From NCBI GenBank assembly GCA_030431775.1, contig JAUIHW010000007.1, positions 1 through 64,000 of the forward strand: DNA of 64,000 nt, given 5' to 3'. The notes under the pieces were generated by a model. It did not search any database. It was given only the letters and a program-made list of their open reading frames with translations, and was not told the DNA's origin. Source of the stretch: Gammaproteobacteria bacterium (lineage in GTDB: Bacteria > Pseudomonadota > Gammaproteobacteria > Pseudomonadales > JAUIET01). Made by a program: the position numbers and the translations under genes. Positions 46,620-61,644 of the stretch are shown one piece after another; the first letter of the stretch is position 1, and every line of letters starts with the position of its first letter.

Positions 46620-47909
46620 ATGTTACAGAGATACCACAGAAAAACCCTAGCGCTACTGGGCCCGCTGTTGCCGTTGTTATTGGTGCTTATGCTTCCCGAA
46701 CCGGCCTGGGCGCGCAATACGGTGGACCTGACGCTGCGCGACGTGGAGCTGTCGGCCGCCATGGAAATGCTGTCACGCCGGGAGAAAGTCAATATCGTGG
46801 TCGGCGACGGTGTAGAGGGTGTTGTGTCCCTGAACCTTTATGGCGTTGAAGTGGTTGAAGCCATTCACATGATTGCCAACGCCGCCGGCTATTCGGTGGA
46901 GCGGCGCGGTAAAAGCTATCACGTGATCGAGCACGACCAGGTCAACAATTACTCCAGCAGCGATCAGTTACAAATTCGCACCTTCCGCCTGCGCTACAGT
47001 GAGGCCTCCACGGTCGGCGATATGCTGAAGGAGTACCTGTCGGCTTACGGCACGATGACCCTGCTGGAAAAGCGCAATATGATAGTCATCGAAGACACAC
47101 CAGACTTTTTGCGCCGGATCGCGCGCCTGGTGGAGCAGCTCGATTATCGCCCCAAGCAGGTGTTGATCGAGGCCAAAATTCTGGAAGTACGCCTGGATGA
47201 TACCGAGTCATTCGGTGTGGAATGGAGCAAACTGTTTAATTCCGACACCGGAACCAATGGCAGCTTCGGCACGCAGTCGCTGGCCGACGCGAATTCGCCG
47301 GGCTTTTTTGTTAACCTGAACGACAGCAATTTTACCGCGGTTCTGGACGCGCTGGAAAATACCGGCAAAGCCCGCACACTGTCCAGCCCGACCTTGCTGA
47401 CTGTAGAGCACGAGCCTGCTTCGGTGATTATCGGTAACCGTCTGGGTTATTTGAACACGGTTACCATTAACCAGGTGACAACCGAAACCACGGAATTTTT
47501 GGAAAGCGGGGTAATTCTGGAAGTGACACCCAGTGTCGATGGCGACGACAACATCCACCTGGAGATACACCCGGAAGTGAGCACCGGTACCGTCACCGAT
47601 GGCATTCCGTCGCAGGACACCACCGCTGTGGATACCCAGCTGATCGTCCCCAACGGCGCGACCTCCTTCATCGGTGGCCTGATGCGCCTGCAAAAATTCA
47701 ATGATCATCGCGGTGTGCCTTTGCTGGGCCGCATTCCGGTGGCCGGCAAATTGTTTTCACGCACCGAAGACCGCGCCATCCGCACCGAAATCATCGTGCT
47801 GATCACGCCACGCATCGTAGACCCGGGTAACGACCCGCTGATGGACCGCCAGCGGGAGCGGGTTGAAGAAGTGCAGACTTCTATTTCTGATACTGCATCA
47901 GTGGAATAG
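46620..47909 (+). CDS. mshL: Secretin (MshL/PilQ/GspD family)
   Basis: 429 residues forming the outer-membrane pore of the pilus. Signal segment (about 10-32), an STN-like N0 domain (VDLTLRDVELSAAMEMLSRR to about 100), an N1 domain (about 115-180) and the C-terminal secretin beta domain (VLIEAKILEVRLDDTESFGV, VTPSVDGDDNIHLEI, PLLGRIPVAGKLFS). It has no AMIN domain and is shorter than most PilQ, close to the minimal MshL form. It is the last gene of the pilus island, and a repeat element follows. Confidence 0.9.
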   Translation: MLQRYHRKTLALLGPLLPLLLVLMLPEPAWARNTVDLTLRDVELSAAMEMLSRREKVNIVVGDGVEGVVSLNLYGVEVVEAIHMIANAAGYSVERRGKSYHVIEHDQVNNYSSSDQLQIRTFRLRYSEASTVGDMLKEYLSAYGTMTLLEKRNMIVIEDTPDFLRRIARLVEQLDYRPKQVLIEAKILEVRLDDTESFGVEWSKLFNSDTGTNGSFGTQSLADANSPGFFVNLNDSNFTAVLDALENTGKARTLSSPTLLTVEHEPASVIIGNRLGYLNTVTINQVTTETTEFLESGVILEVTPSVDGDDNIHLEIHPEVSTGTVTDGIPSQDTTAVDTQLIVPNGATSFIGGLMRLQKFNDHRGVPLLGRIPVAGKLFSRTEDRAIRTEIIVLITPRIVDPGNDPLMDRQRERVEEVQTSISDTASVE

Positions 47910-47935: not shown

Positions 47936-48048
47936 AGCGGAAGAGCGACTGGTGTTTTTCCGCTCCATGGGCCATCCCTGGCCCATCCCGCGCCCGTCCA
48001 TGGCGCTAGTCGCTCCGAAACCCCATACGCACCCAATTTGGGCTGCGT
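47936..48048 (+). repeat. Dispersed repeat, copy 1 (core 47961-48017)
   Basis: The core holds TGGGCCATCCCTGGCCCATC, followed by CCGCG, then CGTCCATGGCGCTAGTCGC. It shares about 45 bases with the copies at 60306 and 60471. Its flanking arms are weak: TGGTGTTT (47950-47957) opposes AAACCCCA (48018-48025) with one mismatch. A separate seven-base-pair hairpin (AGCGGAA 47936-47942 with TTCCGCT 47958-47964) and a hairpin at 48027-48048 lie on either side. It fills the 224-base gap after the secretin gene and holds no gene. Confidence 0.75.
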
Positions 48049-59265: not shown

Positions 59266-59343
59266 AGTGTGGCGAGCCGTTTGCATCTTGCACGCCACGA
59301 GCATAGCATGCACGCGGACGGTACAGATAAATGACACAGGGTG

Positions 59344-60243
59344 ATGGAACTGGACAGTAACAAACTGACGGTCGCGATTTCCTCCAGGGCGCTCTTCGAC
59401 CTGCGGGCGAGCCACGCGGTGTATGAAGAAAAAGGCCTGGAAGCTTACAGTCGATACCAGATAGAGAACGAAGACAGGGCTCTGGAACCCGGCGAGGCGT
59501 TTCCACTGGTAAAAAAACTACTTGGCATCAACGCACAGCTGGGCGGTGAAAAACGGGTGGAAATTATTCTGCTGTCCCGAAACAGTGCAGACACCGGCTT
59601 GCGTATTTTCAATTCCATTCAGCACTATGAGCTTGATATCAGTCGGGCGGCGTTCTGCAGCGGCGCGAGCCCGCACCGTTATGTTCAGGCGTTCGGGTCC
59701 CACTTGTTTCTGTCCACCGACGCCGATGACGTGCGCGACGCATTGCAACGGGGTATCGCCGCAGCCACTCTGCTGACCTCCGGCTCCAAGCAGGCAGGCA
59801 GCGATACGCTGCGCTTTGCCTTTGACGGCGATGCGGTGCTGTTTTCCGATGAAGCTGAGCGCGTGTTCAAGCAACAAGGGCTGGACGCCTTTGCGGCCAG
59901 TGAACAACAGGCAGCACACCAGCCGCTCAGTGGTGGGCCGTTCAAAGCCTTTTTATCGGCACTGCATAATCTTCAAGCGGAATTTTCCCGAGATGAATGC
60001 CCGATTCGTACCGCTCTGTTCACTGCGCGTTCGGCGCCTGCACATGAACGGGTGATTCGCACCTTGCGGGCCTGGGGAATACGCATCGACGAATCACTGT
60101 TTCTTGGTGGCATGCCCAAGGCGGAGTTTTTACGGGCCTATGGGGCCGATGTGTTTTTCGACGATCAGCAGGGGCATTGTGACCTGGCCAGCGAGCATGT
60201 AGCGACCGGGCATGTGCCGCATGGGGTGGCGAATGAGTCTTGA
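59344..60243 (+). CDS. Cytosolic 5'-nucleotidase, NT5C1-like
   Basis: 299 residues of the 5'-nucleotidase type I family: LTVAISSRALFDLR (pseudo-motif I), VEIILLSRNSADTGLRIF (Ser/Asn loop), SRAAFCSGASPHRYVQAF, LRFAFDGDAVLFSDEAERVF (DxD phospho-aspartate motif) and DVFFDDQQGH. It dephosphorylates AMP or IMP in vertebrates; the bacterial substrate is not shown. A GTG one codon upstream (59341) is a possible start. A long perfect hairpin begins 34 bases after the stop. Confidence 0.8.
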   Translation: MELDSNKLTVAISSRALFDLRASHAVYEEKGLEAYSRYQIENEDRALEPGEAFPLVKKLLGINAQLGGEKRVEIILLSRNSADTGLRIFNSIQHYELDISRAAFCSGASPHRYVQAFGSHLFLSTDADDVRDALQRGIAAATLLTSGSKQAGSDTLRFAFDGDAVLFSDEAERVFKQQGLDAFAASEQQAAHQPLSGGPFKAFLSALHNLQAEFSRDECPIRTALFTARSAPAHERVIRTLRAWGIRIDESLFLGGMPKAEFLRAYGADVFFDDQQGHCDLASEHVATGHVPHGVANES

Positions 60244-60276
60244 TTGTGCCGACTGTGCCGATTGTGCCACTGGCCC

Positions 60277-60392
60277 GGCCTCGTCAAAGGGGCTGCAGGG
60301 GTCCCAGCGCTCCGTGGGCCATCCCTGGCCCATCCCGCGCTCGTCCCTGGCGCTAGTCGCGCCGGGACCCCTGCAGCCCCTTTGACGAGGCC
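60277..60392 (+). repeat. Dispersed repeat, copy 2, inside a perfect 29-base inverted repeat
   Basis: Arms 60277-60305 and 60364-60392 are perfect 29-base complements (left arm starts GGCCTCGTCAAAGG, right arm ends CCTTTGACGAGGCC). The 58-base loop is the conserved core, with TGGGCCATCCCTGGCCCATC at 60315-60334 and GGCGCTAGTC at 60349-60358. The arms share no sequence with those of copy 3. It starts 34 bases after the nucleotidase stop, so it may also act as a transcript-end hairpin. Confidence 0.9.
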
Positions 60393-60443
60393 TAGTCACT
60401 GGGCGTTGTCTCAACAATCAATCCATGAAGAGTCTGCAATGTA

Positions 60444-60555
60444 GCTCTGCAAGAGATGGGGGCTTATTTCGCAGTGACTAGCGCCATGGATGGACGCGGG
60501 ATGGGCCAGGGATGGCCCATGGAACGAAGAAATAAGCCCCCATCTCTTGCAGAGC
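60444..60555 (-). repeat. Dispersed repeat, copy 3 (inverted), inside a perfect 27-base inverted repeat
   Basis: Arms 60444-60470 and 60529-60555 are perfect 27-base complements (left GCTCTGCAAGAGATGG..., right ending CATCTCTTGCAGAGC). The 58-base loop is the same core as copy 2 in reverse orientation (GATGGGCCAGGGATGGCCCA at 60500-60519). It lies 51 bases from copy 2, so the two cores face each other, and 80 bases upstream of the cysB -35/-10 region. Confidence 0.9.
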
Positions 60556-60606
60556 GGTGATTCAGCGTTGCCAGCCATACAGCTTGCATTTTCCCCAAGT
60601 CTATAA

Positions 60607-61644
<1,038 letters not shown>

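Follow-up and report, generated by a model that had tools for sequence, protein, structure and literature searches.

TwoAYGGAY-like hairpin elements in a gammaproteobacterial genome, and coupled change in the paired arms of similar elements in Marinobacter

The locus and its genome

The stretch of DNA considered here, which we call the window, comprises 64,000 nucleotides of a gammaproteobacterial draft genome (121 contigs), and it contains two neighbouring intergenic units, with a 5'-nucleotidase-family gene on one side and a gene for a LysR-type regulator, presumably CysB, on the other (Table 1). Inverted-repeat comparison finds each unit to be bounded by perfectly complementary arms, and between these arms the units share, in inverted orientation, a core of about 51 bases with 88% identity. 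A scan that allowed spacers of up to 120 found no further perfect arms of at least 12 bp in the 64 kb, and in 20 block shuffles of the window the longest perfect arm was 12, with none in 18 of the 20, so that the inverted shared core within perfect arms of 29 and 27 bp, as described in the first-pass annotation, is confirmed as real and far beyond chance. By eye, the long arms of copy 1 and copy 2 are alike only in a run of G and a CTT-like stretch. The predicted RNA folds are very stable (copy 1, z = -11.8 and -10.6 for its two strands; copy 2, z = -10.8), and the core itself holds two small hairpins inside the long arms. An ordinary terminator was considered for these units and rejected, since a terminator search found no terminator-like site at 60200-60700. 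No transposase was seen among the six neighbouring proteins scanned, in keeping with what had been noted at the outset. Rfam microRNA models (mir-642, MIR904) match the window at 60263-60407, and also loci L414 and L437, far under their thresholds, and such matches on long hairpins are a trap for automatic annotation.

Table 1. Coordinates of the two units, the further core copies and the flanking genes (positions in the window unless a contig is given)
Feature	Position	Strand	Remarks
Upstream neighbour, 5'-nucleotidase family (PF06189)	59341..60243	+	
Copy 1 arm, 3' in element sense	60277..60305	-	29 bp, perfect complement of 60364-60392
Copy 1 core	60308..60358	-	
Copy 1 hairpin B, loop AGGGAT, 7-bp stem	60315..60332	-	
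Copy 1 hairpin A, loop AGGGAC	60337..60353	-	read by hand; minimum-energy fold pairs the stretch otherwise
Copy 1 arm, 5' in element sense	60364..60392	-	
Copy 2 5' arm	60444..60470	+	27 bp, perfect complement of 60529-60555
Copy 2 core	60476..60526	+	
Copy 2 hairpin A, loop ATGGAT, one bulged base	60481..60497	+	
Copy 2 hairpin B, loop AGGGAT	60501..60520	+	
Copy 2 3' arm	60529..60555	+	
Downstream neighbour, LysR-type regulator	60670..61644	+	
Third core copy	47961..48013	-	94% to copy 1; arms of about 8 bp read by hand
Fourth copy, half core without arms	contig C100:52919-52946	-	

Searching the whole genome by overall similarity returned four copies of the core. Against the refuting condition set in the first-pass annotation, that other core copies mostly lack arms, the genome gives a mixed result: two of the four have long arms, one has only the short arms of about 8 bp and one is an armless half core. 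The third copy (fold z = -1.8) lies just behind a gene (46620-47909) that is presumably secretin-like. The genome has one csrA (G000:C57:50544-50702), which lends weak support to a CsrA reading of the core because at least one is present in 54 of the 56 genomes that were searched. About 300 bp downstream of this csrA, past a tRNA-Ser, there is a GCCAAGGATGGC hairpin with a CsrA-type loop (L100, about 1501-1512; G000:C57:51025-51036), and elsewhere (L104/L105, G000:C120:52838-52899) repeats about 50 bp long stand in tandem downstream of a terminator-like hairpin, each with a GCCATGGATGGC hairpin.

The core as a candidate CsrA-binding RNA

On the strand on which copy 2 reads forward, the core is predicted to fold into two hairpins with loops of the form C[ANGGAN]G. 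Reading by hand, we find ANGGA retained in all seven loops of the four copies in this genome, a second loop base that is a pyrimidine in just three of the seven, and a GGA-to-GGA spacing of 22 nt in the three full copies. An excerpt of PMC4894983 describes CANGGANG hexaloops as high-affinity CsrA/RsmE sites and puts the optimal spacing of such sites near 18 nt. At the level of sequence, then, what one would look for in a CsrA-binding RNA is present, namely two ANGGA hexaloops, a suitable spacing and a csrA in the genome. The hairpin pattern GCCANGGATGGC occurs 12 times in this genome, against two for the reversed control, and four of the 12 are the core copies; the notion that CsrA hairpins are common across the window was rejected, CANGGANG loops on stems of at least 4 bp being found there only in the three core copies.

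The layout is that of TwoAYGGAY (RF01731), with two adjacent AYGGAY-like (here ANGGAN) loop hairpins within an outer stem. The whole element of copy 2 (60437-60562) matches this covariance model at 42.3 bits (E 3.9e-5), which is just below the gathering threshold of 43, and copy 1 gave no match at E<=1 in the Rfam scan. Since the external stem of the family is described as poorly conserved in an excerpt of PMC4333381, the combination that stood out most in the first-pass annotation, in which the loop is conserved and the arms are not, is the known look of TwoAYGGAY. The core is thus of a known RNA-family type, a point absent from the first-pass annotation, and we read both units as probable RNA elements of the TwoAYGGAY type, with predicted CsrA docking. 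A second model was built from 53 Marinobacter elements, picked by their loop and by arms of at least 14 and with the copies of our own genome left out, and it finds copy 1 at E 0.025 and copy 2 at E 0.005 (rough E values) and misses copies 3 and 4 at E<=10; the conservation of loop and arms within those 53 elements proves neither, as both were selection criteria.

Spread in relatives and in Marinobacter

Of 95 related genomes, 15 gave RF01731 matches, seven of them above threshold, and the 14 controls gave none; the largest number per genome, at least 25, is a lower bound, because up to 26 candidates were scored in each. The GCCANGGATGGC pattern is abundant relative to its reversed control in G059 (93 versus 1), G100 (81 versus 3), G092 (68 versus 3), G093 (51 versus 0) and G019 (47 versus 1). 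Among relatives with the same build, RF01731 gives nine matches in 13 loci, two of which pass the threshold (both in G040, at 45.6 and 43.9), and in eight loci from several genera Rfam reports it in our own locus and otherwise only in L116, at a weak 33.2 bits. We take the genus that holds G019, G059, G092 and G100 (g19) to be Marinobacter because a core-pattern scan fitting its elements, with at least 119 stretches and 80 loci among the matches listed, places 79 of those 80 loci in Marinobacter. The remaining one (L470) is a core of Marinobacter type from a draft contig labelled Pseudomonas antarctica, through either contamination or transfer. A literature search, mostly without subscription papers, did not find such repeats described in Marinobacter.

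The same architecture occurs in other genomes, some of them in a single contig and one a named, complete Marinobacter genome, and it comes in two regimes. In G093, G034 and G083 the arms recur among copies; in g19 and the G040 loci the core is conserved and the arms vary, with perfect runs of 17-31 bp in 22 of 23 elements (8-29 in G092 and 5-29 in G100 when fuller sets are taken). The window resembles the variable-arm regime, though with only four copies. Among the matches listed for G092, G100 and G019, all 18 close pairs (60-700 bp) are in (-,+) order, 117-646 bp apart, and the pair in the window has this same order, which random orientation would give about a quarter of the time.

Occupancy varies between relatives. 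The elements of the window are absent from the sole same-genus relative, G001, and in Marinobacter the pyk locus, which was matched in 60 of 61 genomes, carries recognisable elements in 10 of the 30 loci examined, with 26 of 30 at a second locus. Two loci from sister species without the pyk element (L232, L233) retain a stretch resembling only one arm, which deletion also explains. Several further observations concern other loci. Downstream of pyk in Marinobacter, a GTAGG-starting REP-like palindrome lies in the inter-element spacer (L225, L226, L229 and L230, and only in part in L227); L114 (G043:C1:94000-96200) is an array of six hairpin elements with a period of about 227 bp; and in G046 (L106, L109-L113, L122, L123) CANGGATG-type hairpins of another build, without long arms, follow terminator-like hairpins at a short distance, in many cases as a run of several.

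Variation and consensus among the arms

The arms had been called private to each copy, and this holds for the two window copies, which differ, and less well elsewhere, given the recurrence of arms in G093, G034 and G083 and a weak consensus in Marinobacter. Unrelated copies have a mean arm identity of 0.41 in G092 and 0.42 in G100, versus 0.29 and 0.30 when shuffled; three arm positions prefer G-C (84/101, 92/103 and 71/108 of Watson-Crick pairs); and the core and inner arms of one element recur, with up to 97% identity over 95 bases, at other loci in other species. These shared letters, G-C positions and recurring inner arms lead us to view the arms as varying around a weak consensus, and wholly random arms were rejected on the strength of the first two. 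Unrelated copies that share 70% or more of an arm are few (13 of 1326 and 17 of 1770 pairs). The idea that arms are pasted in from elsewhere in the set was also rejected: within the G092 and G100 elements, and at a cut-off of 36 bits, 12 of 224 arm windows match a non-orthologous element and 88 of 224 match their orthologue.

Length is held more tightly. Of 109 elements of G092 and G100, 81 have a best arm length between 24 and 27, and Watson-Crick pairing runs at 0.82-1.00 over arm positions 1-24, then 0.72-0.75 and 0.62-0.63, and 0.28-0.31 at the 27th, all of these counts omitting elements whose best arm is under 8 (0 of 52 and 3 of 60). Hairpin-cleaving nucleases could set an upper limit on arm length, and our guess is that they do so here, with the lower limit coming from function.

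Coupled change of the arms

The evidence for arm turnover comes from two Marinobacter genomes, G092 and G100, and from two loci in further species. In the two genomes 52 and 60 elements were recognised, versus 68 and 81 hairpin-pattern matches, so that the copies are covered in part, and the 38 orthologous pairs divide into 18 that were used, 10 with replaced arms, four dropped for weak flanks and six dropped for a register shift or a short arm. In the 18 pairs with recognisable arms, the 39 changes in left arms and 37 in right arms coincide at 21 positions, where 3.41 would be expected and 2000 shuffles reach a maximum of 9. Eighteen of these 21 lead from one Watson-Crick pair to another, and seven of the 18 are transversions, against 407 of 1040 in the flanks. 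The same pairs hold 34 one-sided changes (19 transversions, 15 transitions), and a looser split, with the left arm at 19/27 or better, puts the compensated changes at 47, of which 18 are transversions and 29 transitions, with 55 changed pairs of other kinds.

Ten of the 28 comparable orthologues have an arm in which less than 20 of the 27 letters are shared, yet 22-26 of the 27 positions pair in both genomes. The aligned flank pieces of these ten are 88.2-98.1% identical, pieces that omit much of the intergenic sequence, and over the 40 bases beyond the arms the median identity is 0.62 on the left and 0.70 on the right, where the 18 used pairs have 0.82 and 0.89 and random letters 0.51. In five of the ten, one outer side is 0.88-0.97 identical though the adjoining arm and the opposite arm have both changed. 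In two of the six dropped pairs, L321/L371 (left) and L395/L400 (right), a single arm has been replaced along with its outer side, which is the intermediate expected if halves exchange at the core and then re-match. A third of these six pairs, L319/L373, has a block difference at the outer ends of both arms, with the letters beyond nearly the same. Cores may be swapped too, since L262 and L267, at the same locus, have nearly the same arms and cores of different type.

Two further counts bear on how the arms stay paired. G-U makes up 63 of the 115 non-Watson-Crick arm pairs (2.5-2.9% of paired positions), above the roughly 0.30 of such pairs that arithmetic from the flank spectrum leads us to expect without RNA-level selection, so ordinary selection contributes. 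Read from the 5' arm, GC:CG stands at 818:459 and TA:AT at 429:234 (379:229 and 207:118 in G092 alone); an excerpt of PMC8794818 has intrastrand template switching predict an excess of G-C and U-A in this reading, although the test is soft because the weak arm consensus also biases these ratios.

What the elements may be and how their arms stay matched

We lean, on balance, towards the view that these are TwoAYGGAY-type decoy or control elements for CsrA, whose arms are re-matched by template switching together with stem selection. Each element would present two CsrA/RsmA-type hairpins, about 22 nt apart, on the long stem formed by the two arms, and its RNA, if made, would bind a dimer of CsrA and serve as a decoy or a local control site. 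The arms would retain mainly their mutual complementarity and length, and their sequence only weakly. New letters would enter one arm, either by point change or when half of the element is replaced through recombination at the conserved core; hairpin-primed template switching during replication would copy them to the opposite arm, and selection for a usable stem would keep the re-matched arms. Transcription, CsrA binding and template switching as the copying step are what we infer from these patterns, and the window copies probably behave like those of Marinobacter, to which they are linked through shared architecture, the RF01731 score of copy 2 and the 53-element model, which matches copies 1 and 2 and misses copies 3 and 4.

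Coupled arm change beside a kept outer flank favours templated arm-to-arm correction plus stem selection, and the first-pass annotation, upheld in part, finds support in Marinobacter for its suggestion that arms are kept complementary by conversion: the coupled changes, and the arms that are replaced and still paired, look like the work of conversion or template switching. We hold that selection and templating both act, because the transversion share is like that of the flanks and an outer flank is kept beside a changed arm, while the G-U excess speaks against a purely DNA-level account. Templating is indicated in that the compensated transversions, in a sample of only 18 changes, follow the flank spectrum, where selection along a G-U path predicts few.

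The best surviving competitor, which we regard as rather unlikely, accepts the same RNA element and has its arms paired solely through selection on the stem by ordinary compensatory mutations, with no templated copying. The over-representation of G-U, the 34 one-sided changes and the poorly conserved external stem of TwoAYGGAY, as an excerpt of PMC4333381 has it, all fit this well. It is harder to square with compensated transversions that equal the flank share, with one-sided changes that are not chiefly transitions (15 of 34), with the small fraction of paired positions that are G-U, and with arms that have largely changed yet stay paired beside a kept outer flank. We are similarly doubtful of a bolder reading, in which hypervariable stem arms, matched over a nearly constant 26 bp or so, are maintained genome-wide by template switching as replication repeatedly rewrites one from the other, with arm sequences swapped among close species while the CsrA-docking core is preserved; the weak arm consensus and the diverged outer flanks of replaced pairs make it less likely. 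Without any templating, whole elements could also be swapped for those of an unseen allele from another strain, since the sequence outside the arms has often diverged in replaced pairs, but this hardly explains an outer flank kept beside a changed, still matching arm.

It is also conceivable, though we think it improbable, that the hairpins are mainly terminators, stabilisers of mRNA ends or DNA cruciforms and that their CsrA-like loops are incidental. Their very stable predicted folds, their intergenic position in the window and, by eye, the location of some Marinobacter copies directly behind a stop codon would suit such roles; the lack of any terminator-like site in the search of 60200-60700 and the retention of ANGGA in every one of the seven own loops would not. 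We give still less credence to mobility of a kind in which the arriving element builds its arms by copying the flank of its target in inverted form, as had been proposed for this core. Dispersed copies, a same-genus genome without the element and the one-arm stretches at pyk in L232 and L233 can be read that way, but G001 simply lacks the element, deletion leaves one-arm remnants as well, arm length is nearly fixed, outer ends look similar by eye, and the six neighbouring proteins hold no transposase. Moreover, arms that recur among copies in G093, G034 and G083, together with the weak Marinobacter consensus, imply that arms are not made from scratch at each site. An assembly artefact or chance, which a draft in 121 contigs might invite, can practically be dismissed, as single-contig genomes and the named complete Marinobacter genome have the same build and block shuffles reach at most 12 bp.

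If templating and stem selection do jointly keep these arms matched, they touch on an old question, which is how RNA stems stay paired through changes in sequence. Template switching has been proposed for the upkeep of stems, and the evidence for such maintenance is called circumstantial in an excerpt of PMC8794818. Since a Marinobacter genome holds dozens of such stems and many species of the genus have been sequenced, the mechanism becomes measurable there. In addition, if the hairpins bind CsrA, they would constitute an unusually large set of dispersed CsrA sites, and this would change models of CsrA regulation in these bacteria.

Comparison with known systems

REP and BIME elements (REPINs) are short intergenic palindromes, often in inverted pairs, with conserved palindromic arms. 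The elements of the window resemble them as short intergenic palindromes in an inverted pair and differ in that the core is conserved and the arms vary; the REP-like repeat in the spacer of some Marinobacter pairs is separate from the elements. CsrB/RsmX/Y/Z-type RNAs are decoys for CsrA that carry GGA motifs in loops. Unlike these, the window and Marinobacter elements place two sites on one long stem, occur in many dispersed copies and are candidate RNAs for which no dedicated gene is seen. The presentation of GGA motifs in loops is also a feature of CsrR1 and CsrR2 of Alcanivorax, as an excerpt of PMC9788540 describes them. The Marinobacter arms, for their part, are like quasipalindrome correction or template switching in their apparent arm-to-arm copying and multi-base compensatory changes, although the work excerpted from PMC8794818 concerns rRNA and microRNA, whereas here we deal with dispersed bacterial elements and close orthologues. 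The nearest likeness is with TwoAYGGAY (RF01731, clan CL00106), which in the excerpt of PMC4333381 likewise has adjacent GGA-loop hairpins and a long, poorly conserved outer stem, belongs to Gammaproteobacteria and is a proposed CsrA binder. The window and Marinobacter elements depart from it in loops that are ANGGAN and not strictly AYGGAY, with copy 2 at 42.3 versus 43, and they go beyond its description, as far as that excerpt extends, in their dispersed multi-copy use, their back-to-back pairs, their variable arms of fixed length and the coupled turnover of those arms.
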